Source: Methylococcales bacterium
Lineage (GTDB): Bacteria; Pseudomonadota; Gammaproteobacteria; Methylococcales; Methylomonadaceae
NCBI GenBank assembly: GCA_026399075.1
Contig: JAPLRR010000104.1
Span: 1-44,886 of the forward strand
Direction: 5' to 3'
DNA length: 44,886 nucleotides
The notes under the pieces are model-generated. The model was not told where the DNA came from and did not search any database. It saw nothing but the letters and a program-made list of their open reading frames with translations. Positions within the stretch are counted from its first letter, which is position 1, and every line of letters begins with the position of its first letter. A program made the translations under genes and the position numbers. Of the stretch, positions 319 through 29,432 are shown one piece after another.

Positions 319-723
319 TTACTTGACCAGTTTTTGCGTGACCAAACCCAGTTGGCTGATTTCTAAGCGCGTCACCACATCCAACACCTCTATCACTTTT
401 TCATATTGGATGGACGCATCGGCTTTTAGCACCACCGGCAAATCCGGCGTGGCGGCTTTGTATTGCGCCAAACGGGTTTCCAGTTCCTGGATGGTGACAG
501 GATAAGTGTCCAAATAAATGGTGCCGTCTGGGGTGATCGAAACTGCTTTGGTTTTGGGTTTTGATAAGGACGGCGAACTGCTGGCTTTAGGCAAATTGAC
601 GGTAATGCCTTGCACGGTCGCCGTGGTCATAATGATAAAAATCAGCAACAACACATAGGCCACGTCCAGCATGGGCGTGATGTTAATGTCGTCATAGACT
701 TTGTCTTCAGCTTCCACTTTCAT
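319..723 (-). CDS. exbD: ExbD/TolR family biopolymer transport protein
   Basis: A 134-residue protein with a short cytoplasmic N-terminus, a single transmembrane helix at about residues 18-38 (MLDVAYVLLLIFIIMTTATV) and a periplasmic domain ending in LVTQKLVK. The aspartate in NITPMLDVAYVLL is the conserved proton-path residue of ExbD/TolR. With ExbB it forms the inner-membrane motor that energises TonB. It starts 2 nt after the ExbB-fusion stop and is followed 9 nt later by the tonB-like gene, so the three are one transcription unit. This set sits behind a two-partner secretion pair instead of an obvious receptor gene, which suggests a specialised motor. Confidence 0.92.
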   Translation of the reverse strand: MKVEAEDKVYDDINITPMLDVAYVLLLIFIIMTTATVQGITVNLPKASSSPSLSKPKTKAVSITPDGTIYLDTYPVTIQELETRLAQYKAATPDLPVVLKADASIQYEKVIEVLDVVTRLEISQLGLVTQKLVK

Positions 724-725
724 GT

Positions 726-2528
726 TTATTCGCTCCGTTCGCTGATGCGGTAAGAAATCATCGCCAAAAATTCGTCGGTAAACACCTGCATATCAGCGGT
801 GATGCCTTTGATTTGGGTCAGCAAATAGTTGTAGGCAAACAAGGCCGGAATCGCCACCGCCAAACCCGCGACCGTCGCCGCCAAGGCACCGGAAATACCG
901 GGGGCTATGGAGTTAATGTTGACATCGCCAGTTGCGGCGATTACCGCGAAGGTAATCATTACCCCCATTACCGTTCCCAATAAGCCTAAAAACGGCCCGC
1001 CGGAAATGGCGATGGTTAGCAGCACCATATTTTTGTTAAGTTTTTGGCTTTCCCTGACCACCGCCGCATCCAAGCGGGCGCGGACTAGATTAAGGGCTTC
1101 TGCGGTCAGCGGCTTATTGCCTGTTAAGGCAAACAATTTTTTCAGCTCTTGGGCGCCAACGTGGTAAACGTGGTAAATCGGCGAGCTTTGGAAATGGTCA
1201 TGCTTGCCGACAATGGCAGACAAAAAGTCCGAATCGGCTAGCTCTTTTTCTTCTTCGGTTTCATCCTGGTCCAAAGCGACGGGGTTAGAGGCATCGATAG
1301 TGCGGTATTGCTCCAAAAAGGCTTTGTTGTCTTTATTGGCGCGTGAAATCGCCAAGCCTTTGGTAATCATCACCAAGGTGCTGATGACCAGCATCACGCC
1401 GCATAAGGCGATCACGACCCAACCGTCAACCGTCAGGCTTTGTAAAATAATGACGAAATAATTGGGGCCTTCACCTGAAGATTTGGATTCATCCTGACCA
1501 AAATTCAGCACGGTAAAATCGGGGCTTTGGCTGCGGAAAGACAGTTTTATCCAATCAGCACTGCGTGCTTTATTGGCGATTTGCACTTCGTCCAATAAGC
1601 CGACCAAGTTTGCGCCATCATCTGCACCCCCGATTACCAAAGCAGGATTGAACGCGGGCAAACTGATCGCCACCGAGCCAGCAGCTTGACCGTCAACAAA
1701 CACCTCTAGCTTGTCTTTGCTGGCCACCAAAGCCACATGTTGCCATTTGCCCAGTTGCAAGGTGGCGGCAGGGGTGGTCGCTGTATTAAAGCGGGCGCTG
1801 AGGTTTACGCCATTAATCGCCAAGCCTAGGCTGTTCGCGCCGTCTTTGGCTTGGAACACCACGGTGTTGGTTTGGGCGGCATCGATTTTTAGCCACGTGC
1901 TGAAAGTCCAGCCGTTATCTGGGTTTACTTGTAATGACGGCGAGGCATTGACGTTAATTGCGCCGCTGCCATCAAACTTTGCCGTCGCGCCTATCCAACC
2001 TGCTGGGTCGATTACGGCTTTTGACGCGCTAGCGTTATTGCCATAAGCGGTGGCATCAGCTGGTGTTGCTGCCGCTTCGGCAAAATGGAACACCAAGGCT
2101 TGGTTGACGTCGTAAATGCTTTTGGCTTCCGAGGCATCCTCGGCAGCGGCATTGCCGTAATACATCCAAAACGATTCAGTGCTGGCCGCGCCTTTAATCG
2201 TGGAGGCCTTGACCCATACCAATCCCATTTCCGCCACTGGGTCGATTTTTTCGACAAAGTATTTGACCGGGGTTTTGTCATCGACCATAAACCGCAGGTC
2301 TTTACCGTTTTCCGCCACTTCGGTGAAATAGCTGAAATTACCCGTATGCAAGCGCAATAACAACGGGAACTCGCTCAGCGTTTCTTGGGTGTCAGCCCCG
2401 GTAATGCTGGCATCGATGGTGATTTGTTTGCGTGATGACCATTCGTCATTCCACCACGCGTAAGCGGCTATCGGTATCAGCAACAACACCAAACCCCACT
2501 GTAAACGGTTATACCAAGATGTTTTCAT
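726..2528 (-). CDS. DUF2341-LamG-MotA/TolQ/ExbB fusion protein
   Basis: A 600-residue inner-membrane protein in three parts. Residues 1-25 are a signal or anchor helix. Residues about 26-150 match the DUF2341 pattern (WWNDEWSSRKQITID, then FWMYYGN). Residues about 170-345 form a LamG/concanavalin-like jelly roll (GWTFSTWLKID, LGKWQHVALVASKDKLEVFV) and would be periplasmic. A transmembrane helix lies at about 370-395. The C-terminal third (about 498-600) is the MotA/TolQ/ExbB proton channel, with ISGGPFLGLLGTVMGVM and GISGALAATVAGLAVAIPA. Canonical ExbB is under half this length. The periplasmic lectin-like head is the added part and could sense or bind a glycan or partner protein. It is followed directly by exbD and tonB. 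Confidence 0.88.
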   Translation of the reverse strand: MKTSWYNRLQWGLVLLLIPIAAYAWWNDEWSSRKQITIDASITGADTQETLSEFPLLLRLHTGNFSYFTEVAENGKDLRFMVDDKTPVKYFVEKIDPVAEMGLVWVKASTIKGAASTESFWMYYGNAAAEDASEAKSIYDVNQALVFHFAEAAATPADATAYGNNASASKAVIDPAGWIGATAKFDGSGAINVNASPSLQVNPDNGWTFSTWLKIDAAQTNTVVFQAKDGANSLGLAINGVNLSARFNTATTPAATLQLGKWQHVALVASKDKLEVFVDGQAAGSVAISLPAFNPALVIGGADDGANLVGLLDEVQIANKARSADWIKLSFRSQSPDFTVLNFGQDESKSSGEGPNYFVIILQSLTVDGWVVIALCGVMLVISTLVMITKGLAISRANKDNKAFLEQYRTIDASNPVALDQDETEEEKELADSDFLSAIVGKHDHFQSSPIYHVYHVGAQELKKLFALTGNKPLTAEALNLVRARLDAAVVRESQKLNKNMVLLTIAISGGPFLGLLGTVMGVMITFAVIAATGDVNINSIAPGISGALAATVAGLAVAIPALFAYNYLLTQIKGITADMQVFTDEFLAMISYRISERSE

Positions 2529-13027: not shown

Positions 13028-14638
13028 CTAAAACTGGTAAGCCATCAAAAAATCGACCCGTTGATTGCCGACATCAACCGTGCCTTGTTGGTATAAGGGA
13101 TAACCCCAATCAAACTCACCTATCCAGTGTTTGAACAGCTGCATCCGTAAGCCAGCGCCTGCGCCTGCCAAATGATAATAACTGGGGTTGCCTTGTTGTG
13201 GCTGTTGCAGCCAAAGATAGCCGTAGTCGATAAAGGTGTGCGCCCGAAAGTTTTGCACAAAGTCCCAATCAGCCCGTTTAAGTTGCGGGCTTTGCAATTC
13301 CAGCGATAAATTGATGCCGTCATCACCCAGTTGTTGGGTTTGGAAATAACCGCGCACGGTTTGCACACCGCCCAAGGCGAATTGTTCATTGCTGATCAAC
13401 GGTGTGCTGGCGACTTGGCCGGAGATACGGCCTGCCACCCTGACATCTTTAGGCAATTGTTGCAGGTGTTTAAGTTCACCCGTAAGGTAGAGGTAATTGG
13501 TTTCGGCACCCACCCTGCGGTCGGCGAATTGCGCAGGGTCATTACCCAAACCGCGGATTGAAAAATGCAGCGTTGAGCTGAGGGAGGTCGTGGAATTTTC
13601 CAGCGGTAGGTTGCCATCGTAACCTACCTGGAAGCTGGCGTAATCGACAGGCGACGGTTCGGTGTCCTGGCCTTGCACGGTCACACCTTGGTCAAACATT
13701 TTGTAATCAAAGCCAGCCGTTAAGCTGTGGCTGTAATCACCAAACTGGTCTAAGGGTTTCATCAGCCAGGTGCCAAAAATGTAACCTGTACCCAATACCG
13801 ATAAGCCACCAATACTGGTGCCCAAATTGGTGTTTGAGTTAATGCCGATGCCATACAGGGCCAAACGGGTGTCCGCCCAACCAGTCGGCAACACATAAGT
13901 GCCAGACCACACTTCCACTTCGTTGCTGTCTTCGGGGGAGACCAAAAATTGTAGCGAGGCGCTATGGAAGCGCTGCCATAAATTGTCATAACGCAACGAC
14001 GCGTTTAAGCGTAGCCGCGTAGTGCTTTCGTTGTTGCGGCCGTTGAGTTCGACACCGCCATGTAAAGGCAGGCCGTCTTTGACATGCAGTTCAACTTCAG
14101 TTTTACCCGGGGTTGAACCCGCACGGAATACGGGGGTGATTTGACGGTCAGGCGATTCTTCCGCCAGCTGCGCCAATTGGGTTTGCACTTCTGGCATGTT
14201 CGGCACTTGGCCTTTGGCAAGTGCGGGCACGCCCTCCCTGATTTTACCGAGTGAGTAATACCGTGAACCCGTGATCTTCAGCCGTTCCACCGTGCCTTCG
14301 ACCACGTCCAAACGCACGGCATCATCGACCACATCTTGTTCAGGCACTTCAACCACAACCGTTGAATAGCCCTGTTTGGCATAAACCGCTTCCAAGGCTT
14401 GACGTGCTTTTTCCACGTCATCGATCGATTTGTTAGGGCCTAAAAATGGATAAATGGCTTTTTCCACGTCTTTTTGCGCCAACACGGTATTGCCATCAAC
14501 TTGAATCCTGAGCAAGTCGAACGTGGGGGCGGCTGCTTCTTGGGCAGCCGCTTCCGGTGGCGTATCTGCTGCATAAGCCGGCACAAACAAGAGTTTTATT
14601 GCTCCTGCGAACATTAGCTGTCTTAGTAGACTGGGCAT
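13028..14638 (-). CDS. TpsB outer-membrane transporter (ShlB/FhaC/HecB family)
   Basis: A 536-residue Omp85-superfamily protein that exports the adjacent TpsA. It has a signal peptide ending near AYA (residue 23), two POTRA domains (about residues 40-115 and 116-195, the first beginning LLRIQVDGNTVL), then a 16-strand-type beta-barrel starting near GVELNGRNN. The VRGY motif of the conserved lid loop is present (GGVQTVRGYFQ), and the last residue is phenylalanine, as expected for barrel assembly. Length is normal for the family. Only 9 nt separate it from tpsA, so the pair is cotranscribed. A hairpin at 14705-14728 separates it from the upstream PKD gene, so the operon probably starts just upstream of this gene. 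Confidence 0.93.
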   Translation of the reverse strand: MPSLLRQLMFAGAIKLLFVPAYAADTPPEAAAQEAAAPTFDLLRIQVDGNTVLAQKDVEKAIYPFLGPNKSIDDVEKARQALEAVYAKQGYSTVVVEVPEQDVVDDAVRLDVVEGTVERLKITGSRYYSLGKIREGVPALAKGQVPNMPEVQTQLAQLAEESPDRQITPVFRAGSTPGKTEVELHVKDGLPLHGGVELNGRNNESTTRLRLNASLRYDNLWQRFHSASLQFLVSPEDSNEVEVWSGTYVLPTGWADTRLALYGIGINSNTNLGTSIGGLSVLGTGYIFGTWLMKPLDQFGDYSHSLTAGFDYKMFDQGVTVQGQDTEPSPVDYASFQVGYDGNLPLENSTTSLSSTLHFSIRGLGNDPAQFADRRVGAETNYLYLTGELKHLQQLPKDVRVAGRISGQVASTPLISNEQFALGGVQTVRGYFQTQQLGDDGINLSLELQSPQLKRADWDFVQNFRAHTFIDYGYLWLQQPQQGNPSYYHLAGAGAGLRMQLFKHWIGEFDWGYPLYQQGTVDVGNQRVDFLMAYQF

Positions 14639-14812: not shown

Positions 14813-16171
14813 TCAGCTATTACAAGCTGCCAACGGGTCCACGGCTTTGGGCTTGATGGTGACGCTGACGGGATAGCTTTTGCTGTTGCCCTTGGCATCG
14901 GTAATGGTCACGTTAATGCTATAAGTCCCCACCAATTCGTAAAAATGGCTGGCGGTTTTGCTGGCAACACCTGCTGCCAAGGGGAAGGTTTCAGATTTCG
15001 TGTCACCCCAATCAAACTTGACCGTATAAGGGCCAGTGCCACCTGTCACATCAATCTTGGCTTCAGCGGCGGTATTAAAAGTGACCGATGCTTGGGTCAA
15101 TTTGAGCGTGCCGGCCAAGTCAGGAATTTTTGCCACGGTGGTGATCGTAAAGCTTTGCGTCTTAACCAGGTTCTTTGCATCGGTTAGCGTAATCGCCAAG
15201 TTATAAGTGCCCACTTCACTGTAAATATGGTTTACAGTCTTACTGGTCGCCGCAGCCGCCAATGTGGATACATCAGCGGTAGATGTATCGCCCCAATCAA
15301 ACTTCACACTATACGGTTTGGTGCCGCCTGAAATGCTGCTGACACTCGCCGCAACTTGCCCGCCTTGGGTAAAGCTGGTTTGGTCCACTCCAAAGCTGGC
15401 CTTTAGCGGCAGTACGCTGGCAACGGTTACAGTCACCGTGTCAGTGTGTTTAGCTTTGTCGTTATCAATGACCGTCAACTCAAACACCAAGCTGGCATCG
15501 GTATTTGGGCTGGTGAAAGAGGCTTCCACCGCTTTGGGGTTAATCAACTTCACCGTCGTTGCTTTGGTGGCATTCAGTTGTTTCCAGGCATAACTGACCA
15601 GCTTGCCGTCATCATGGCTGGCTGACCCGTTTAGCTTGACCAGTGTATTAAAAACTACCGTTTGGTCGGCGCCCGCATTTGCCACAGGCGCGGCATTGAC
15701 TGGTTTGACGGTTACCACCACTGTGCTGCTGCCTTCCGCCCCCGCCTTATCTTTAACGGTTAATTTAAACGTCAGTTTTACGGCCACAGTCGGTTTGGTG
15801 GTTTTGACAATAGCAGGTGCAACAAAACTAGGTTTTGCCGGATCTGCCCGATTTAAGGTCACAGCCGGGCCTTTCGTTTGTTGCCAACTATAGCTGGTGA
15901 CAGTCTTGTCTTCTTTGTCTGAGCTTTTGCTGCCGTCCAGTGTTACCGTCGCCCCTTCGTTGACCGGGGCAACCGCAGTAATCACCGCCTTTGGTTTGGC
16001 ATTGGCGGCAAGTGCAACAGGCGCATTGAACACCGACCCTGCCAAGACCAACATCGTTAAAGCAAAAAAGCCGGTGCGTGGCAGCCATCTGGCCACCGAT
16101 GCCAATAGCTGGTACGGGCCTAAGATAGGCAAGCCCTGGGCTTGCCCTAATTGTTTGGATAGGTTGGACAT
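14813..16171 (-). CDS. Secreted four-domain PKD protein (copy 1)
   Basis: A 452-residue exported protein with a signal sequence ending near residue 56 (PVALAANAKP). Two PKD/REJ-like domains follow at about 60-160 (VNEGATVTLDGSKSSDKED) and 161-250 (ANAGADQTVVF). Two further PKD domains carry the signature VKFDWGDT near 290 and 385, each with a HxYxxxGTY strand. It ends in DPLAACNS, and that cysteine is the only one in the protein. PKD domains are beta-sandwich modules found in surface and secreted proteins, where they mediate protein or ligand contacts. It lies 23 nt after the PstS-like partner. The start is supported by AAGGA 7 nt upstream of the ATG. Confidence 0.85.
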   Translation of the reverse strand: MSNLSKQLGQAQGLPILGPYQLLASVARWLPRTGFFALTMLVLAGSVFNAPVALAANAKPKAVITAVAPVNEGATVTLDGSKSSDKEDKTVTSYSWQQTKGPAVTLNRADPAKPSFVAPAIVKTTKPTVAVKLTFKLTVKDKAGAEGSSTVVVTVKPVNAAPVANAGADQTVVFNTLVKLNGSASHDDGKLVSYAWKQLNATKATTVKLINPKAVEASFTSPNTDASLVFELTVIDNDKAKHTDTVTVTVASVLPLKASFGVDQTSFTQGGQVAASVSSISGGTKPYSVKFDWGDTSTADVSTLAAAATSKTVNHIYSEVGTYNLAITLTDAKNLVKTQSFTITTVAKIPDLAGTLKLTQASVTFNTAAEAKIDVTGGTGPYTVKFDWGDTKSETFPLAAGVASKTASHFYELVGTYSINVTITDAKGNSKSYPVSVTIKPKAVDPLAACNS

Positions 16172-16194: not shown

Positions 16195-17850
16195 TTATTT
16201 CAACTGAATTTGCAAACCACCTGTCGCCTTATCATCAGCAACCGGAACGATACCTGTTAAGGTAGAATTGGTCGCCGTGCAAAAGTGCGTCAATGGCACA
16301 ACGGGGTTGTCCGCATTAAACGGAATGGATGCCTTAAAACCACGTGCATCTTTAGTGGTTGCAAAAATGCCGCTAACCCCGAAGGTCAAGGTTGGATTCA
16401 CCGCTTTAGCAATCGTGGGGCTGCCCAAGTTATCAGCGAATATTTTTAACAGCTTGGATTTGTCCGCCCATTTTGCATCTGCGGCTTTGGCAGTACGGTA
16501 TAAGACCACGCCTTCCGCCCAATTCGGGTACACGCCCGCCGCGACGTTTTCAATCGTGGGCGCATAGCCGTCAATTTTCACATAACGCCAGGCCTTGCCC
16601 GGGGTCACGCCATCAGCCGTTGCACCGGGGTTACGGTCGCCGCTGTTCAGCGCCAGTCCCCACACTTTTTGCAATTTGCTGTTCAGGCCCGAGGTGTTAG
16701 TGCCGTTATTCCAGTCAATCAGCAAGTTATCTGTGGCACTTGCCCCGCCGGGTGATTTGACGATAGGTGCAGCGATGTCATCTTCACTGGCGGCGTTGCT
16801 GTCAGCAGGTTTATTGGCGTTGGCCGTACCGGGGTAATTTAAGAGTTTGGCATAGCCAACTGCCCCGATAGCCGCGCCCTTGTTGCGGCGGCCCACGCCA
16901 ACCGGGGATTTGCCATCAATATTTTTAAACGGTGCAGCAACCCCCGCATCCGCCAAAATCGATGCGTCATTCAGGCTTAATGCAGTGTTAGAGGATTTAT
17001 CCACTATCTTCACTTGCTCCCAAGAACCAATTTTTCCGGCAAAAATGGAGGCCAAAAAGTTTCTGCTTAAATTGGGTAAGGCCGCATCTGTATACTGGCC
17101 GACAGTGACAGAAGCTGGCAGGGAACCCGCGCGTTTTTGCGCGGCTTGCAAGGCTTTATATAAATCAGAGGTGACGGCCACGCCATACACCAATCCGCCC
17201 GTAGAGATTAAGGTAAAACCTTCGGGTTTTTTGTTTAAGTCCAAAGGCCAGCCCGCTTCCGGTAAACCGGTGGTTAGTTCGTTGACTTGTTCGGGATAGT
17301 TTTCAGTATTTGGTTGCAACAAAATATCGGGGTCCACACCTAAAAATCCGCCGTCAGAAATAACTTTGGTCAAGTAAGTTGATGCGTTGGCGCTGGAAAT
17401 GTCTTTTTTCCATTTTTTGCCACCAGCTGTGCCATCAACATCCCAAGCCGTTGCTGGCAAACCGACAATATTTAGTTGTTCTAGCGCTAAACCTTCACCG
17501 TTGTTGGCAAACAATGGCACGACGCCGTAACCTGCCGCGCCATAAGAACGTTTGACCAAGATGATTTTTTTGCCTGCCAGCCCAGTCCCTAAATCCGCAT
17601 GGCCTTGAAAGTAAAATGACTGCCAACGGCCACCAATTGTCGTGCCACTGACATCACTAAAGGTGTCCAAGGTGCCAGTTGCCGCCAAGGAGTTTGCAAC
17701 CACACGCGCGATCGCTTGGTCTTGCGCAGCACCGCCTGAGGTGTAGACCACCAGATCGGGGGCACCATCATCCCAAGGTGTTAACGCCAATGCCCCTTGA
17801 GAACCTGCCAATATGGCTATGGCCACGGCCAATTTATTAAGTTTTTTCAT
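16195..17850 (-). CDS. Secreted PstS-like periplasmic-binding-fold protein (copy 1)
   Basis: About 551 residues with a Sec signal peptide cut near LALTPWDDG. The segment DLVVYTSGG starts the mature fold. LSRNFLASIFAGKIGSWEQV matches the hinge motif of PBP-like/PstS proteins (L..IF.GKI..W), and PVGVGRRNKGAA resembles their ligand loop. It is much longer than PstS (about 320-350 residues). The mature part has a single cysteine (THFCTA) near the C-terminus. The ATG at 17850 is preferred over one 15 nt upstream because GGAAGG precedes it and it aligns with the paralogue start. The ligand is unknown; phosphate-, molybdate- or tungstate-like oxyanions are candidates. There is no lipobox and no cognate permease nearby. 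Confidence 0.75.
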   Translation of the reverse strand: MKKLNKLAVAIAILAGSQGALALTPWDDGAPDLVVYTSGGAAQDQAIARVVANSLAATGTLDTFSDVSGTTIGGRWQSFYFQGHADLGTGLAGKKIILVKRSYGAAGYGVVPLFANNGEGLALEQLNIVGLPATAWDVDGTAGGKKWKKDISSANASTYLTKVISDGGFLGVDPDILLQPNTENYPEQVNELTTGLPEAGWPLDLNKKPEGFTLISTGGLVYGVAVTSDLYKALQAAQKRAGSLPASVTVGQYTDAALPNLSRNFLASIFAGKIGSWEQVKIVDKSSNTALSLNDASILADAGVAAPFKNIDGKSPVGVGRRNKGAAIGAVGYAKLLNYPGTANANKPADSNAASEDDIAAPIVKSPGGASATDNLLIDWNNGTNTSGLNSKLQKVWGLALNSGDRNPGATADGVTPGKAWRYVKIDGYAPTIENVAAGVYPNWAEGVVLYRTAKAADAKWADKSKLLKIFADNLGSPTIAKAVNPTLTFGVSGIFATTKDARGFKASIPFNADNPVVPLTHFCTATNSTLTGIVPVADDKATGGLQIQLK

Positions 17851-18058
17851 AACTAACCCTTCCATTAAAATTAAAAATCAGACAGCTGTTTAGCGGGATG
17901 AATGAGGCAGACCGCTACAGTGCGAAAGCCCCGCCTTAACAACAGGCTTAGGCTTTGCCTAGTAAACACCGCGACTGTACAGTAGATTTAGCAAACTACA
18001 TGCCAAACTACAAGCTTATGATTTTATATAGATTTTAGTGGAGCAGTGATGATTAACT

Positions 18059-18104
18059 GTTGATATATCAGCAATCACTGTTGATCTGCTGCTGATATAT
18101 CAAC
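18059..18104. promoter_or_regulatory. Perfect 15-bp inverted repeat with TGATATATCA cores
   Basis: GTTGATATATCAGCA (18059-18073) and its exact reverse complement TGCTGATATATCAAC (18090-18104) flank 16 nt. Each arm contains the palindrome TGATATATCA. It is AT-rich and lacks a T-run, so it resembles a tandem operator more than a terminator. It lies about 210 nt upstream of the copy-1 binding-protein gene and 120 nt beyond the end of the second PKD gene. The remaining bases of this gap show no other recognisable element. Confidence 0.6.
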
Positions 18105-18223: not shown

Positions 18224-19483
18224 TCAACATTCCCCCAAGGGTTCAGCAAGTTGCACACTAATTGGCACGGTAAAGGTTTTTATGCCGTTATTAGCATCCG
18301 ATACCGTGATTTTTAGGCTGAACTCACCATTGGCGGCGTAATTATGGGGGGCGGATTGGCTAGTGATGCCAGCCGCTAAGGCAAATTCTTGGGCAGCTGT
18401 ACCATCGCCCCATTCAAATTTGACTTTATACGTCCCAGTGCCACCGACGATGGCCTTAGCGGTGGCAAGCACCTGGTCACCCACCAACACCGCCGTGCTA
18501 TTCAGCGTGAAATCCGCCGCCAAAGGGACAGGCGGCTGGGCAACCGAGAGCACACTAGCTTGGGATTTCGTTATCCCTTTGGCATCAGTCACGGTCATGT
18601 TTAAGGTAAAGCTGCCCGCCGACAGATAGTTGTGGCTTGCCGATTTGGCGGTTACGCCGCTGGCCAACGCTATTTGCTCCACGGCTGAGCCATCACCCCA
18701 ATCAAACTTAATGGTATAGGGTGCAACACCGCCAGTGATGGCGCTGATGCCGGCAGTTGCCGTATCGCCAATAAGCAGGCTGGTTTTATCAAGGCTAAAG
18801 TTTGCCGACAACACGGGCGGGGCATCTGACACCTTAACCAACACGGTATCTTTGGCCGTTTTCTTGTCGTTATCGGTGACAGTCAGTTGAAATTCCAGCT
18901 CTTCGTTGACTTTGGCGCTGGTAAAAGTGGCTTGCGCTTTGTTGGCATTTTTTAAGGCCACTTTTTTGCCCTTAGTTTGCCGCCAAGCGTAGGCGATTAG
19001 CTTGCCATCATCTGTACTATGGCTGCCATCCAAGGTGACCAGTTTGCTTAAGCCCACCGTCATATCGCTGCCAGCTCGGGCGACAGGCAAGGCATTGACA
19101 GGCTTGACCGTCAGCAACACGGTTTTGCTGCCTACCGCATTTTGCTGATCCGTCACCGTCAGCTTAAACCCCAGGGTAATGGTTTTGGTGGGTGCGGTGG
19201 TTTTGACTATCAATGGCGCAGTAAAACTTGGCTTCGCGGTATCAGCGGCAGTCAAAGCAACCGTTGGGCCTTTGTTTTGCGCCCACGCATACTTGGCGAT
19301 GGCCCCGTCTTTATCGGTACTGCTGCTGCCATCCAAGGTGACTAAGGCACCTTCATTAACGGCCACGATTTTGGCGATGGTGGCAATAGGCGGTTTGTTC
19401 GCCGCAACCGCAATTGGCATGGCGATTAATGCCCAGGCCATGATGAACAAACCTGGTAGGCTATAGTTAGGGTAATTCCACAT
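18224..19483 (-). CDS. Secreted four-domain PKD protein (copy 2)
   Basis: A 419-residue paralogue of the copy-1 PKD protein. It has a signal peptide (about residues 1-28, ending PIAVAA), two PKD/REJ-like domains (VNEGALVTLDGSSSTDKDG; ARAGSDMTVGLSKLVTLDG) and two PKD domains with IKFDWGDG and VKFEWGDG. The final residue is the only cysteine (EPLGEC), matching the C-terminal cysteine of copy 1 in position. It follows its binding-protein partner by 15 nt. GAGGAG upstream of ATG 19483 supports the start. It probably forms a secreted complex with the partner, inferred from the conserved pairing only. Confidence 0.85.
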   Translation of the reverse strand: MWNYPNYSLPGLFIMAWALIAMPIAVAANKPPIATIAKIVAVNEGALVTLDGSSSTDKDGAIAKYAWAQNKGPTVALTAADTAKPSFTAPLIVKTTAPTKTITLGFKLTVTDQQNAVGSKTVLLTVKPVNALPVARAGSDMTVGLSKLVTLDGSHSTDDGKLIAYAWRQTKGKKVALKNANKAQATFTSAKVNEELEFQLTVTDNDKKTAKDTVLVKVSDAPPVLSANFSLDKTSLLIGDTATAGISAITGGVAPYTIKFDWGDGSAVEQIALASGVTAKSASHNYLSAGSFTLNMTVTDAKGITKSQASVLSVAQPPVPLAADFTLNSTAVLVGDQVLATAKAIVGGTGTYKVKFEWGDGTAAQEFALAAGITSQSAPHNYAANGEFSLKITVSDANNGIKTFTVPISVQLAEPLGEC

Positions 19484-19498
19484 GACGCACTCCTCGCC

Positions 19499-21151
19499 TT
19501 ACTTGAGTTGTAATTGCAGGCCACCTGTAGCCGTATCATCCGCGACAGGGACAATTAACGCGCTGGTGGTGGCCGTGCCGACACAATTGTGGGTCATCGG
19601 TACTACGGGGTTATTGGGGTCGAAGGGGACACTGGCCTTAAAGCCACGCGGGTCTTTGGTGGTGGCAAAAATGCCGCTGACCCCAAAAGTCAAAGTGCTG
19701 TTTACCGATTTTGCCAAGGTTGGGCTGCCCATATCTTCAGCAAACACTTTCAACAAGGCTTTCTTTAACCCCCATTGCGGATCGCTAAGTTTTTCGGTCG
19801 GATAAAGCACCGTGCCTTCGGCCCATAGCGGATAAACGCCAGCGGAAACATTTTCAATCGTCGGGGCAGCGCCATCCACTTTGATATAACGCCACGGCTT
19901 GCCACCCACACCCGCCGCCGTTGTGCCAGGGTCACGGTCACCCCCGGTGATGGCAATCCCCCATAATTTGGTCAAGCTTGGGTTGAGTCCTGAAACGTTG
20001 GTGCCGGTTTGCCAGTCGATTAGCAATAAATCGGTCGCGCTTAGGCTGGTCGGTGATTTAACGATCGGCGCGGCAAAACTGTCATCCGTGTTGGGGGTAT
20101 TGGCAGCAGGTGGGTTAGATCGTGGTGTAAACGGATAACCCAGCAACCTTGCATAAGCAACCACTGCAGTGGTTGCGCCTTTATTTCGACGGCCTACGCC
20201 TACAGGACTCACGCCGTCTTTATTGAGCGGTGGCGCAGTGACACCCGCCAAGCTCAAAATACTGGGGTCGGTGAGCGGCAATGCCGTACCCGTGGCTTGC
20301 TCCACCACCTTAATTTGTCCCCAATGGTTGATTTTTCCAGCCAAGAGGGAGGCCAAAAAATTGCGGCTTAAACTGGGCATAGCCGCATCGTTATAAGCAC
20401 CGATGCTAACCGTTGCAGGCAATGCCCCAGATTTTTGCTGCGCCGCTTGTAAAACGCGGTACAAATCCTCGGTAACTTCTACACCATACACATAGCCGCC
20501 AGTGCTGATGACGGTAAAATTGTCGGGGGTTTTACTAATATCTAATGGCCAGTTCGGCTCAAAATCGCCGCTGATTAATTCTTTGACTTGTTCGGGATAA
20601 TTTTCGGTACCGGGTTTTAGCAATGCGACGGGGTCTAAGGCCAAAAATCCCGCATCAGAAATGGTTTTGGTCAAATACGTGCTGGCATTACTGCCAGTCA
20701 GGGCTTTTTTCCATTTTTTGCCGGAGGTGCCGTCGGCATCCCAAGCAGCAGCACCCAAGCTGGCGATGTTCAAATGCTCCAAAGGCAGGCCTTGGCCATT
20801 ATTGGCGTACAAGGGGACAACCCCATAGCCACCCGAACCGTAGGTGCGTTTTTCCAAGATGATTTTTTTACCTGCCAGCGTCGCACCTAAATTGCTGCTG
20901 CCGGTAAAGTAAAAAGCCTGCCAACGGCCACCAATTGTGCCTGTGGAGGCGACATCACTAAACACGTCCACTGAATTGGCGGTAGCCAGCGTATTGCTGA
21001 CTATCTTGGCAATCGCCGAATCCAGGGCAGGGCCACCAGAGGTATAAACGACAAGGTCTGGTGCACCGTCTGTCCAAGGTGTCAAAGCATGGCATAGTTG
21101 GCTACTGCCCACTAAACCCAAAGCGATCGTTAGTTTCTTTAAGTTGTTCAT
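19499..21151 (-). CDS. Secreted PstS-like periplasmic-binding-fold protein (copy 2)
   Basis: 550 residues, collinear with the copy-1 protein over its whole length (ALTPWTDGAPDLVVYTSGG; LSRNFLASLLAGKINHWGQI; SPVGVGRRNKGA; TLTFGVSGIFATTKDPRG). The Sec signal peptide contains one cysteine (SSQLCHA) that would be removed; the mature protein has one cysteine (THNCVG), conserved with copy 1. A GAGAGG ribosome site precedes ATG 21151. A ModE-like dyad lies 82-109 nt upstream of the start, so molybdate repression is likely. Binding of an oxyanion is inferred from the fold and the regulator site, not shown by residues. Confidence 0.77.
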   Translation of the reverse strand: MNNLKKLTIALGLVGSSQLCHALTPWTDGAPDLVVYTSGGPALDSAIAKIVSNTLATANSVDVFSDVASTGTIGGRWQAFYFTGSSNLGATLAGKKIILEKRTYGSGGYGVVPLYANNGQGLPLEHLNIASLGAAAWDADGTSGKKWKKALTGSNASTYLTKTISDAGFLALDPVALLKPGTENYPEQVKELISGDFEPNWPLDISKTPDNFTVISTGGYVYGVEVTEDLYRVLQAAQQKSGALPATVSIGAYNDAAMPSLSRNFLASLLAGKINHWGQIKVVEQATGTALPLTDPSILSLAGVTAPPLNKDGVSPVGVGRRNKGATTAVVAYARLLGYPFTPRSNPPAANTPNTDDSFAAPIVKSPTSLSATDLLLIDWQTGTNVSGLNPSLTKLWGIAITGGDRDPGTTAAGVGGKPWRYIKVDGAAPTIENVSAGVYPLWAEGTVLYPTEKLSDPQWGLKKALLKVFAEDMGSPTLAKSVNSTLTFGVSGIFATTKDPRGFKASVPFDPNNPVVPMTHNCVGTATTSALIVPVADDTATGGLQLQLK

Positions 21152-21232
21152 CAGTTAAACCTCTCATGCTAGAAATAGTGCCCAGTGTATGGATTAGGCA
21201 TTTTTAAGTAAGAACGCGAGATTTAATTGTAT

Positions 21233-21260
21233 ATCATTATGTACTCAAGTAAATAACGAA
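21233..21260. promoter_or_regulatory. ModE-like operator upstream of the copy-2 binding-protein gene
   Basis: ATCATTATGTA (21233-21243), 6 nt, then TAAATAACGAA (21250-21260). Read on the minus strand it is TTCGTTATTTA-N6-TACATAATGAT, an imperfect dyad like the ModE operator type of TATA-rich half-sites ending in AACGA, also with a 6-nt centre. The right half-site is identical to that of the dyad at 22990-23017. Confidence 0.6.
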
Positions 21261-21316
21261 AAGGATAATAGTGAATTACCGATTCGGAAGCAATTGGCTA
21301 GACAGGCGTAAGCCCA

Positions 21317-22450
21317 TCAAGCCGCGCTAAGGCTATAACGGCTTTCGCCGTGGCTGACCACGGGCAAGGCAAGTTCAGACAAATACGTGATGGAATGGGT
21401 CTTGATCAGGCAATAAATTTCTTCACCTTCGGCCAAGCCCATGTTTTTGCATGCGGCAGGGGTTATTTCCACCAGCAAAGTCGAGCCGCAATCGACTTGC
21501 ACCAGCAAGCTTTCGCCGCTGGAAATTAAGGCACAAATCCGGCCTTTCAGTTGGTTTTGGATACTGATGCCCTCTATATAGCGACGCGATAAGGCAATAT
21601 CGTTGGCGCGTATGGACACTTGGGTTTGACTGCCAACTGGCTGGCTGGCACGTAAAGGCAAGGTGAGCAAAACCCCAAAGTTATCAGCCAAGCTAATGCC
21701 TGACGCGTGGTCATGGCCACGCAGCGTTAGCGTCAAGACGTTATCCAATTGGCGTAGACCCAGATAGTGCAACAAGTCTTGGCGTTTGGCGACCTCAAAC
21801 AAACAGCCGCTGTATAACACTTTACCTTGCTGCAACACAATGAGCTGGTCGGTCAGCCCCAGAATTTCGCCCAAGGAATGGCTGGCGTATATCACCGCCA
21901 CGCCCAATTCCTGCTGTAGGCGTTTAAGCAGAGGCAACAAGGGTTGCCGATAGACATTGCCTATAGCGGCAAAAGTCTCATCCAATAATAACAACTGCGG
22001 GGATTTTAACATCGCCCGCGCAAGCGCAACCCGTTGGCGTTCGCCAACGGACAACAAGGCTATGGCTTGCCCTAACACCGTTTCCAACTCCAAAAGCCCA
22101 ATCAAAAAATCCAGGTTAAAAATGCGCCTATGGGCCGGGGTGAGCTGGAATGCCATCGTGAGATTGTTGTGTACCGTTTCCGCCGGATTCGCAAAATCCA
22201 TTTGCAACACCGACCCCACGGGCCGTTGCTCAGGCGGCATAAGTATGCCTTTTTGGCTATCAAACAAAACGCTGTCGTTGAGGACAATCCGCCCGCTTTG
22301 CGGTAACACCGTGCCGGCAATAAACCCCAGCACGGAGCTTTTACCGGCTCCGGATTTGCCAAACAATCCGGTGGCGGGGTGGTGGATAGACAAATGGGTG
22401 CTGAGATCCCGATGGCTTTGCCGTAGTTTTACACTCATTTCCAAGCGCAT
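21317..22450 (-). CDS. modC: Molybdate ABC transporter ATP-binding protein, divergent ModC
   Basis: About 377 residues from the ATG at 22450, which has GGAG 6 nt upstream; an upstream TTG at 22462 is less likely. Numbering from that TTG, the Walker A GKSGAGKS is at 35-42, a Q-loop (VLQMD) near 85, and the H-loop region reads YASHSLGEILGLTDQL, very like ModC. A C-terminal TOBE/Mop-like domain spans about 305-365. Oddities: the signature is LSVGER where LSGGE/Q is expected, Walker B LLLLDE is followed by T where P is usual, and the D-loop aspartate is replaced (AAIG). No ModA or ModB is in the window, so the permease is encoded elsewhere or ModC serves another role. It lies 56 nt after mop. Confidence 0.85.
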   Translation of the reverse strand: MRLEMSVKLRQSHRDLSTHLSIHHPATGLFGKSGAGKSSVLGFIAGTVLPQSGRIVLNDSVLFDSQKGILMPPEQRPVGSVLQMDFANPAETVHNNLTMAFQLTPAHRRIFNLDFLIGLLELETVLGQAIALLSVGERQRVALARAMLKSPQLLLLDETFAAIGNVYRQPLLPLLKRLQQELGVAVIYASHSLGEILGLTDQLIVLQQGKVLYSGCLFEVAKRQDLLHYLGLRQLDNVLTLTLRGHDHASGISLADNFGVLLTLPLRASQPVGSQTQVSIRANDIALSRRYIEGISIQNQLKGRICALISSGESLLVQVDCGSTLLVEITPAACKNMGLAEGEEIYCLIKTHSITYLSELALPVVSHGESRYSLSAA

Positions 22451-22506
22451 GGCGGTCTCCAATGGCTAAGTAGCTTGCTAAAGCGGGTATCAACAAGCCA
22501 ATGGGT

Positions 22507-22935
22507 TTATACAGCCACCGCCAAAATCACCGAACCAGCCTTAAAAATCGCCGTGACCGCCAAGCCAATCCCTAAGCCCAGGGTTTCGGCACTGTCATTG
22601 GTTATTGATGCGGCAACCAATTCCCCGCCAGCGAGTTCTATATCCACCTCGGTATTGACCATGCCAGGCTTTATTTGGGTGATGGTGCCGGGCAGTTGGT
22701 TACGCGCCGAAATGCGGTAACCGCCAAAATCCGTAACCAAAATAATTTGCGGGGCTTTAACCAAGGCAATGACTGCTTTGCCAGATTCGATACCCAAAGT
22801 GTCCACCGAATCTTTGGTGATAGTGGCAATAATGGTAGCGCCTCCTGGCAAGCCAATGTGGACTTCGGCATTCACTGCGCCGATTAACACCGTATTGACG
22901 ATGCCGGAAAATTGATTGCGGGCACTGGTTTTCAT
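22507..22935 (-). CDS. Molbindin with two tandem Mop domains
   Basis: 142 residues made of two Mop/TOBE domains. The first (about 2-68) starts SARNQFSGIVNTVLIGAVNA, and the second (about 75-140) starts SARNQLPGTITQIKPGMVNT. Both carry the SARNQxxG motif that forms the oxyanion site in Mop proteins. Such di-Mop molbindins assemble into cytoplasmic oligomers that store molybdate or tungstate. The ATG at 22935 is chosen (GAGG 6 nt upstream) over a TTG two codons earlier. It is the first gene of the minus-strand block, lies directly downstream of a ModE-like dyad at 22990-23017, and precedes modC. Confidence 0.9.
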   Translation of the reverse strand: MKTSARNQFSGIVNTVLIGAVNAEVHIGLPGGATIIATITKDSVDTLGIESGKAVIALVKAPQIILVTDFGGYRISARNQLPGTITQIKPGMVNTEVDIELAGGELVAASITNDSAETLGLGIGLAVTAIFKAGSVILAVAV

Positions 22936-22989
22936 AAACAACCTCGTTGTAAGTTAAATGGGCTAAGTTGGATTCAATTTTGAGTATAT

Positions 22990-23017
22990 TGCATTATGTA
23001 TAAAAGTAAATAACGAA
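22990..23017. promoter_or_regulatory. ModE-like operator upstream of the molbindin gene
   Basis: TGCATTATGTA (22990-23000), 6 nt, then TAAATAACGAA (23007-23017). The dyad has the same spacing and the same right half-site as the one at 21233-21260. It lies 55-82 nt upstream of the mop start, where a bound repressor could block the promoter. A molybdate-storage gene behind it supports a ModE role. The modE gene itself is not in the window. Confidence 0.65.
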
Positions 23018-23445: not shown

Positions 23446-24573
23446 ATGGATACCTATTTAAACCGTAATTTTGCAGATGGTCAGGAAGAATTGCCTTCGA
23501 CCCTATTGGCCTTTGATGAATTACAATCACGTTCGCTGTCGCTATCCGTCCGGGCAACCGCCTTGGTTTTTGAAGATCCGGTTTCAAGGCGGTTGTTGGA
23601 GCAAATAGAACGTATTGCCCCCAGTGATGCGACCGTGTTGATCATCGGCGAAACTGGCACCGGTAAAGAACTGGTTGCCCGCCACATCCACGCGCTGAGC
23701 AAACGCAGCAATAATGTCTTTGGCGCATTGAACTGTGCAGCCTTAAGTGAAAACCTGATTGAAAGCGAATTGTTCGGGCATGAGAAAGGCTCATTTACCG
23801 GGGCTTTGACAAATAAAGAAGGCTGGTTTGAAACCGCCAACAAAGGCAGCCTGTTTTTGGATGAAGTGGGCGACCTGCCATTTGCGATGCAGGCTAAATT
23901 ATTGCGTGTCTTGCAGGAGCGTGAAGTGGTCAAAGTGGGCTCCAGGCAAGCCGTGCCTGTGGATGTCAGGATCATTGCCGCCACCAACGTCAATTTGGAA
24001 GAAGCGGTTGCCGCCTCGCATTTTCGGGCGGATTTATATTACCGTTTTAATGTGGCGACCATCCAGCTTAGCCCATTGCGCGAAAGGCCGCGTGACATAT
24101 TGCCTTTGGCGCGGCATTTCTTGAAAATTTACGGCGACCGTTTAGGTTATAGTGAAATCAAATTGTCGCCAGCCACCGAATTGGCTTTGTTGAATTACGA
24201 TTGGCCGGGCAATATCCGGGAATTGGAAAATGCCGTCCACCGTGCGCTGCTGGTATGCCCCGGCAACCGTTTGCGCCCTGAAGACTTTAAACTGTCCGGG
24301 GTCAGGTCTGGGGATCATCTGCCATCGGTGTCTACAGCCTCTTTGGAAAGCGCCTTGCAACGCCTCTGCGAGCAAGCGCCGCCCAAATTATTTGAAATTT
24401 TAGAAGAAACCATGATACGGGTGGCCTTTGAGTTTTGCGAAAAAAACCAAGTCCAAACCGCGCGTATGCTGGACATTAGCCGTAATGTGCTTAGGCATAA
24501 ACTCAGCTTTTACGGGATGCTGCCAAACACAACGAAAAAAGTCCCTGAAATTTTCAATGATGTTGAGGCCTGA
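23446..24573 (+). CDS. Sigma-54-dependent transcriptional activator without a sensor domain
   Basis: 375 residues from ATG 23446; a TTG start 30 codons upstream would add an implausible extension. Residues 1-42 are short and show no receiver, GAF or PAS domain. The AAA+ domain (about 43-280) has Walker A GETGTGKE at 68-75, the sigma-54 contact loop GSFTGA at 115-120 (usual form GAFTGA), Walker B FLDEVGDLP near 137, and FRADLYYRFNV. A Fis-type helix-turn-helix ends the protein (QTARMLDISRNVLRHKL). It hydrolyses ATP to open sigma-54 promoters. Sensorless activators of this kind (PspF, SfnR) are controlled by a partner protein or by their own expression. Two sigma-54 promoters lie downstream at 26049 and 29415, so the receptor cluster is its likely target. 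Confidence 0.9.
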   Translation: MDTYLNRNFADGQEELPSTLLAFDELQSRSLSLSVRATALVFEDPVSRRLLEQIERIAPSDATVLIIGETGTGKELVARHIHALSKRSNNVFGALNCAALSENLIESELFGHEKGSFTGALTNKEGWFETANKGSLFLDEVGDLPFAMQAKLLRVLQEREVVKVGSRQAVPVDVRIIAATNVNLEEAVAASHFRADLYYRFNVATIQLSPLRERPRDILPLARHFLKIYGDRLGYSEIKLSPATELALLNYDWPGNIRELENAVHRALLVCPGNRLRPEDFKLSGVRSGDHLPSVSTASLESALQRLCEQAPPKLFEILEETMIRVAFEFCEKNQVQTARMLDISRNVLRHKLSFYGMLPNTTKKVPEIFNDVEA

Positions 24574-26048: not shown

Positions 26049-26064
26049 TGGCACATGCCTTGCC
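26049..26064 (+). promoter_or_regulatory. Sigma-54 promoter upstream of the TonB-dependent receptor
   Basis: TGGCAC-ATGCC-TTGC gives GG at 26050-26051 and GC at 26062-26063 with exactly 10 nt between, matching the -24/-12 consensus TGGCAC-N5-TTGC. Transcription would begin near 26075, about 94 nt before the receptor start. Confidence 0.8.
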
Positions 26065-29414: not shown

Positions 29415-29432
29415 TTGGCACAATAGCTGCTT
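29415..29432 (+). promoter_or_regulatory. Sigma-54 promoter upstream of the rhodanese/PSD1/DUF1501 operon
   Basis: TTGGCAC-AATAG-CTGCTT has GG at 29417-29418 and GC at 29429-29430, with 10 nt between. It differs from consensus mainly by C for T in TTGC. Transcription would begin near 29442, about 54 nt before the rhodanese start. Confidence 0.7.

Follow-up and report, generated by a model that had tools for sequence, protein, structure and literature searches.

The window (the whole stretch of 44,886 nt analysed here) comes from a host genome of 4.08 Mb in 111 contigs (93% complete). It holds a series of minus-strand genes that reads, in order, molbindin, a modC-like ATPase (modC'), a ModE box, PBP1, PKD1, PBP2, PKD2, TpsB, TpsA, ExbB and ExbD (Table 1). 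The modC-like gene, which stands between two box-like dyads, was absent from the initial annotation, and it shares 65-67% identity with a gene of the modE/mop clusters of relatives (L127/L193 and L139/L192; L, G and C numbers are our handles for loci, genomes and contigs). In L192 this gene is contained in the order modE<-box->mop-modC'-modA, and in L193 porin pieces, a further ORF and modABC come after mop-modC'. At the other end of the series, a TpsB with POTRA_2 and ShlB domains adjoins a TpsA with a TPS domain, the pair that defines two-partner secretion (type Vb). A profile search found no sensor domain in the sigma54 activator. A further cassette was seen at L105 (G000:C73:50000-60000), where PKD-like, distant PBP (33% identity), TpsB-like and, by eye, TpsA-like genes stand together and no Mo gene was seen within 10 kb.

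Table 1. Features of the window discussed in the text (minus-strand genes from the molbindin downstream, then the plus-strand gene)
Feature	Coordinates	Strand	Remarks
ModE-box dyad	22990..23017	.	upstream of molbindin gene; overlaps -35 hexamer of sigma70-type promoter (23010..22983, minus)
di-Mop molbindin	22507..22941	-	ATG at 22935; PF03459 and TIGR00638, each in two stretches
modC-like ABC ATPase	21317..22462	-	TIGR02142 261.7 bits, under cut-off 285
ModE-box dyad	21233..21260	.	upstream of PBP1; overlaps -35 hexamer of sigma70-type promoter (21253..21226, minus)
PBP1, secreted 550-aa protein, PstS-like fold	19499..21151	-	structure model and fold search
PKD1, PKD-domain protein adjoining PBP1	18224..19483	-	PF22352, PF18911
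Paired palindromes TTGATATATCA	18060..18103	.	candidate enhancer site; exact pair once in genome
sigma54-type -24/-12 element upstream of PBP2	17991..18005	-	TGGCATGTAGTTTGC
PBP2, PBP1 paralogue, 64% identical	16195..17865	-	without ModE box
PKD2	14813..16171	-	profile search
TpsB transporter	13028..14638	-	POTRA_2 and ShlB
TpsA exoprotein, 3440 aa	2696..13018	-	TPS domain, DUF3739
ExbB/TolQ, N-terminal DUF2341 and laminin-G-like domain	726..2528	-	
ExbD	319..723	-	
sigma54 activator	23446..24573	+	AAA; Fis-type HTH slightly under cut-off

Each dyad is 28 bp long with an 11-6-11 layout, and both 28-mers were recovered in the window with the coordinates, half-sites and 6-nt centre that the initial annotation had given. 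It had placed one dyad before a di-Mop molbindin and the other before a secreted binding protein with its PKD partner, and the gene positions agree: the molbindin ATG lies 54 nt from the site at 22990, and the ATG of the 550-aa gene lies 81 nt from the site at 21233. The two sites are near-identical, 1.76 kb apart and in the same orientation. The pattern common to both, CATTATGTA-N6-TAAATAACGAA, occurs at two places in the window when up to 3 mismatches are allowed, both of them exact, while 0 of 100 dinucleotide shuffles of the window contain it and the whole genome adds one match, at 3 mismatches. The palindromic version CGTTATNTANNNNNNTANATAACG is found at three places in the genome with at most 1 mismatch, namely at both dyads and at C62:2780-2803. 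When up to 3 mismatches are tolerated it shows no excess in the genome (16 places vs 28 for the reversed-pattern control), so weight was given to close matches alone. Boxes with up to 2 mismatches are hardly in excess across 37 genomes either (119 places vs 104 for the reversed control), and the analysis was therefore restricted to close matches or a matrix. The published E. coli ModE consensus, ATCGNTATATA-N6-TATATANCGAT, has the layout 11-6-11 as well (PMC545781). At its 20 fixed positions the site at 21233 agrees in 16, the top score in the window, and the site at 22990 in 14, a score that 2 further places in the window also reach; with this layout and these scores, the ModE-like character proposed for the dyads stands.

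The genome encodes a full-length ModE with an HTH and two Mop domains, the regulator whose presence the initial annotation had named as decisive. It scores 100.6 bits with TIGR00637 in one scan and 98.5 bits, exactly the cut-off, in another, and TIGR00638 is matched in two stretches. The gene lies on contig C78, divergent from a second molbindin gene, and no close box was found in the locus around it (L001). The motif does occur at mod genes of the same genome, before the molbindin and before a porin-modA pair, where the box at C62:2780-2803 precedes a 572-aa ORF of the Alginate_exp family and the host modA, located on C62, comes next. This porin (G000:C62:1036-2754, L124), with the ModE box upstream and modA directly after it, is a candidate outer-membrane route for molybdate; Alginate_exp porins behind ModE boxes, recognised by BLAST to the host copy, are also seen in L134-L138 and L141.

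The two window boxes each overlie the -35 hexamer of a promoter with one common layout, TTTACT-N16-TATACT or TACAAT. In the region as a whole, a promoter scan returned 5 promoters vs 7.7 in shuffles, which is no excess. The position of the boxes on the -35 of a sigma70-type promoter fits repression by Mo-ModE, and the sequence thus suggests that Mo-ModE represses at both window boxes.

To our knowledge, how methanotrophs acquire scarce molybdenum beyond ModABC has been little explored. A PBP1 homologue, near or distant, is present in 85 of 201 family genomes, and a scan of genome contigs gave 69 PBP loci, many of them titled Methylococcaceae, Methylococcales, Methylovulum or Methylobacter, two Nitrosomonas, with distant ones from other groups. 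Conservation of the dyad upstream of orthologues had also been named beforehand as a deciding point, and the dyad is retained upstream of the nearest orthologues (L035, L036) as well as of PBP copies in other parts of the tree. In L035, whose PBP1 is 91% identical, the order is modE<-box->mop-box-PBP1-PKD1-modABC; in L063 and L064 it is modE<-box->mop-PBP-modABC, and L070 starts in the same way on a truncated contig. The binding-protein gene is thereby part of a modE/mop/modABC cluster in L035, L063 and L064. In L035, modA and modC are recognised by their respective equivalog models. SBP_bac_11 recognises modA in L063 and L064, and BPD_transp_1 recognises modB in each of the three loci.

For counting, 15 boxes taken from the promoters of modE, mop and porin genes were made into a matrix, which was used to score the 600 bp before the gene in 59 close rows (58 distinct loci, L030/L071 being duplicates) and 41 distant rows (40 distinct, L084/L157 being duplicates). 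The count omits L037 and L038, which have too little upstream sequence, the fragments L080-L083, L086 and L087, the distant loci L091, L096, L097, L100 and L103, and distant homologues without upstream sequence. Scores above 12 bits were obtained upstream of 22 of the 58 distinct close PBP loci, the next score being 6.1 and the reversed-matrix control reaching 6.8 at most; three of the 22 (L063, L064, L070) are training sites, so that the independent count is 19 of 55. In the same scan 36 of the 58 close loci have no box, Methylomonas and Nitrosomonas copies among them, and neither has any of the 40 distinct distant cassettes, none of which exceeds 2 bits. Fourteen boxes stand 42-113 nt upstream of the PBP start, and that of L058 stands 340 nt away. 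In L056, L059, L061 and L062 the box is 280-380 nt away from the PBP gene, and a divergent ORF of 182-188 aa that begins 0-14 nt from it may be the gene that it really serves. In L059 this ORF (L059:13641-14189) resembles a molybdopterin-binding oxidoreductase domain, with a score below the threshold (18.6 vs 24 bits). Elsewhere in relatives the motif precedes modE, mop, modA or porin genes, and it sits between modE and mop or porin. With at most 1 mismatch, at least 25 places were found across the 37 genomes, and those listed comprise 15 at Mo genes, 7 at PBP/TpsA genes and 3 others; among the 15 Mo-gene places listed, the one in Methylovulum miyakonense stands at the head of a TpsA cassette as well, and the one in G161 at the head of a mop-PBP operon.

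The M. miyakonense case offers a parallel with other binding proteins. In strain HT12 (L203:1501-10001) the genes of two SBP_bac_11 binding proteins come first after the box; next are a sigma54-type element and the genes of an exoprotein with a TPS domain, a transporter with POTRA_2 and ShlB, and a TonB protein. These ModA-type proteins score 22.0 and 56.4 bits with the modA model, under the cut-off of 62.5. The cassette supports the view that Mo-regulated binding proteins and TPS exoproteins belong together.

The initial annotation had predicted that a surface or periplasmic cassette belongs to the molybdate regulon, and this is supported for PBP1-PKD1, which has the box, and not for PBP2 onward. 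No ModE box was found in the window for PBP2, PKD2, TpsB, TpsA and ExbBD, and these genes have a sigma54-type promoter of their own, so direct ModE control would be limited to PBP1-PKD1. The PBP2 element lies at 18005, with the palindromes TTGATATATCA about 68 and 100 nt upstream; no sigma54 element was found upstream of the window PBP1. The paired palindromes are a possible enhancer site for a sigma54 activator, and L040 and L042 have similar ones at a distance of about 100 nt upstream of their elements (3 of the 18 sites examined, the window included). The single palindrome TGATATATCA is not rare, since 13 of 100 window shuffles have two or more when 1 mismatch is allowed. Among PBP upstreams in general, the strict sigma54 pattern has no match, and the relaxed form is present in 15 of 59 close and 1 of 41 distant upstreams vs 1.6% of shuffles; at up to 3 mismatches, elements are present in 25 of 59 close and 6 of 41 distant upstreams vs 3% of close-set shuffles. 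In six relatives (L046, L049, L057, L058, L060, L075) the box ends 6-7 nt before the sigma54 -24 element of the PBP gene. Homologues of the sigma54 activator are divergent from PBP genes in 9 loci (L042, L045, L047, L049, L050, L053, L059, L066 and L069, the last in two pieces), and the window copy is a candidate activator of PBP2. Near it, two more sigma54-type elements were noticed on the plus strand, one at 26049-26063, 120 nt before a TonB-dependent receptor gene (26169), and one at 29416-29430, 80 nt before a rhodanese-like gene (29496).

The structure model of PBP1 is of high score (pLDDT 91.9, pTM 0.89), and the fold search with it gave 25 PDB matches at E <= 0.001, all named as phosphate-binding or phosphate-transport proteins. 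The best E value belongs to 4exl (1.2e-8), TM by target reaches up to 0.64, and none of the 50 PDB fold neighbours listed is named as ModA. By sequence, PBP1 matches 0 Pfam and 0 NCBIfam families at E 0.01, has no match to TIGR01256 (ModA), and gave one unconvincing match in a PDB sequence search (E 0.6); hhalign against the host PstS gives a probability of 1.5%. The earlier label "PstS-like" is therefore right for the fold and does not extend to the sequence family. Profile mapping of pocket residues onto PstS failed, and what we call the pocket loop is assigned by motif position and fold alone.

The boxed copies fall in three lineages of the PBP tree. A tree of 50 rows needs 4 changes of box label, 3 of them forced by starred branches, compared with a shuffled mean of 15.4; the three changes can also be read as one gain and two losses. 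The 18 rows that represent the three boxed lineages depart from the residue conserved in non-box rows at columns 41, 106, 107 and 369. This test used 18 of the 22 boxed rows: the partial genes L070, L075 and L079 were omitted, and L051, whose box is weak and whose residues are the usual ones, was counted as non-box. With the distant rows L084 and L085 removed, the non-box reference had 31 rows with at most one deviating row per column, which gave 124 columns. The 4 shared columns compare with 0.12 expected and with 0 of 200,000 random draws, under a column restriction picked after seeing the data and on the assumption of three independent lineages; of 20 control triples, 18 have no such column and 2 have one. 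Two earlier, less strict forms of the test were discarded. The first (6 columns vs 0.37 expected) was too generous. In the second (5 vs 0.27 for the boxed triple) non-box triples reached observed/expected ratios up to 23, and permuting the labels did not set the boxed triple apart (4, other triples up to 6), partly because several of these non-box lineages share ancestry.

Several known systems share parts of this arrangement. ModE targets include molybdate transport and nitrogenase regulators (PMC545781, PMC9542535), and predicted targets in G. sulfurreducens extend to a CoA-transferase, a tRNA, transport systems and nucleases (PMC2700814). The locus has in common with the ModE regulons of E. 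coli, Geobacter and Azotobacter the 11-6-11 operator, a full-length ModE, boxes at mod genes and presumed Mo-dependent repression, whereas the accessible parts of these three papers describe no target that is a secreted PstS-fold/PKD unit linked to two-partner secretion. Judged by title and the start of the abstract, none of the open-licence literature matches listed links ModE to a secreted binding-protein cassette. A sigma54 promoter under a Mo-box is described for R. capsulatus morAB, morA being a ModA-like binding protein (PMC6925177), and a sigma54 promoter combined with a Mo-box for A. vinelandii anfA (PMC9542535). As far as these sources describe them, such promoters resemble those before the PBP genes of the six relatives, with the box next to a sigma54 element, but the window PBP1 has a sigma70-type promoter and the sigma54 element belongs to PBP2. 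PBP1 shares its fold with PstS phosphate-binding proteins, but it lacks a family-model match and has 550 aa vs about 300 spanned by the host PstS-family match, which lies on another contig. The HxuCBA haem-capture system uses a TPS exoprotein and a separate receptor for nutrient capture (PMC4873976); from what that source describes, the likeness is one of layout, an analogy, while the window cluster differs in its binding proteins and ExbB fusion and its nutrient is a presumed one. In M. capsulatus Bath, MCA2224-MCA2227 are predicted secreted proteins, with TpsA a likely adhesin (PMC4257694). Their locus numbers place a PKD protein, TpsB and a 3349-aa hemagglutinin-like TpsA near one another, as in the window to which we liken them by description, but the accessible part of that report describes no Mo link.

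Taking these results together, we read the dyads as operators of the host ModE over molbindin-modC' and PBP1-PKD1, with PBP1 capturing molybdate or a related oxyanion together with the surface machinery encoded downstream, and give this reading a probability of roughly 0.7. Molybdate-loaded ModE would sit on the -35 region of both window promoters and shut off molbindin-modC' and PBP1-PKD1, and when molybdate is scarce both would be made. PBP1, secreted and with a PstS fold, would then act outside the inner membrane, most likely capturing molybdate or a related oxyanion there, and work with the machinery from PBP2-PKD2-TpsB-TpsA-ExbBD, which the sigma54 promoter and the nearby activator would switch on. 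The parts differ in strength: the box, the ModE gene, conservation, the operon links and the modelled fold are observed, whereas repression, the ligand, cooperation with TpsA/ExbBD and the role of the activator are deduced from them. That PBP1-PKD1 is under ModE control is very probable and well supported by sequence. That PBP1 itself binds molybdate is a reasonable expectation with nearly even chances, and the gene order suggests that it may work jointly with TpsA and ExbBD.

Alternatively, PBP1 could be ModE-controlled without binding molybdate, having phosphate or another ligand or a structural role, with Mo status serving as a cue, e.g. for nitrogen fixation. Some methanotrophs carry Mo-nitrogenase genes, and the host genome has two nitrogenase-family genes (PF00148), nifE and nifN as read by eye. 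The phosphate-related names of all 25 fold matches also suit this explanation, and most close relatives are without a box, which leaves room for a basic role of the family unconnected with Mo. Set against this are the operon links within the modABC clusters of L035, L063 and L064, the loop changes common to boxed copies and absent from non-box copies, and the ModA-type proteins at a similar place in M. miyakonense; on balance we hold the explanation unlikely. It is very improbable that a regulator other than ModE binds the dyad: ModE binding is a prediction, no box was found around the host modE, and the site at 22990 fits the E. coli consensus no better than 2 other window places, but the layout is that of the ModE consensus, the motif lies between modE and mop or porin in relatives, and the host has modE. 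Least probable of all is that the PBP1 box is a functionless by-product of a local duplication of the molbindin promoter, as the close likeness, spacing and common orientation of the sites might suggest, since boxes also precede the PBP1 orthologues in L035 and L036 and PBP copies of other lineages.

Returning to the ModE-operator reading, a ModE switch before a secreted binding-protein gene, recurring in relatives, points to an undescribed extracellular response to Mo shortage, and it offers a testable list of genes behind ModE boxes: PBP1-PKD1, the porin preceding modA and, in one species, ModA-type proteins beside TpsA-TpsB-TonB. A more far-reaching idea, which we put forward as tentative and somewhat doubtful, is an undescribed system of surface molybdate/tungstate acquisition built from PstS-fold proteins, giant two-partner-secreted proteins and ExbBD, whose duplicates were drawn into the ModE regulon in three lineages with a ligand switch. 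If so, the same four positions in the loops with the binding motifs, changed in each boxed lineage, would mark the switch towards molybdate, and these common changes would allow a direct test of how a binding protein changes its ligand.

Some boxes were also seen in other settings. They stand upstream of TpsA genes in L204:1184-14586, where the box lies between a divergent TpsA and a distant PBP-like gene, and in L198 (G199). At L200:1023-2001 (G115:C1) a 1-mismatch box is located just upstream of the gene of a LysR-type regulator, which has a molybdopterin oxidoreductase gene next to it. A palindrome that mimics a 2-mismatch box, CGTTATGCAAAGCTTTGCATAACG, recurs in G041:C158, G055:C1, G120:C5 and C10, and G027:C1, and is probably another element.
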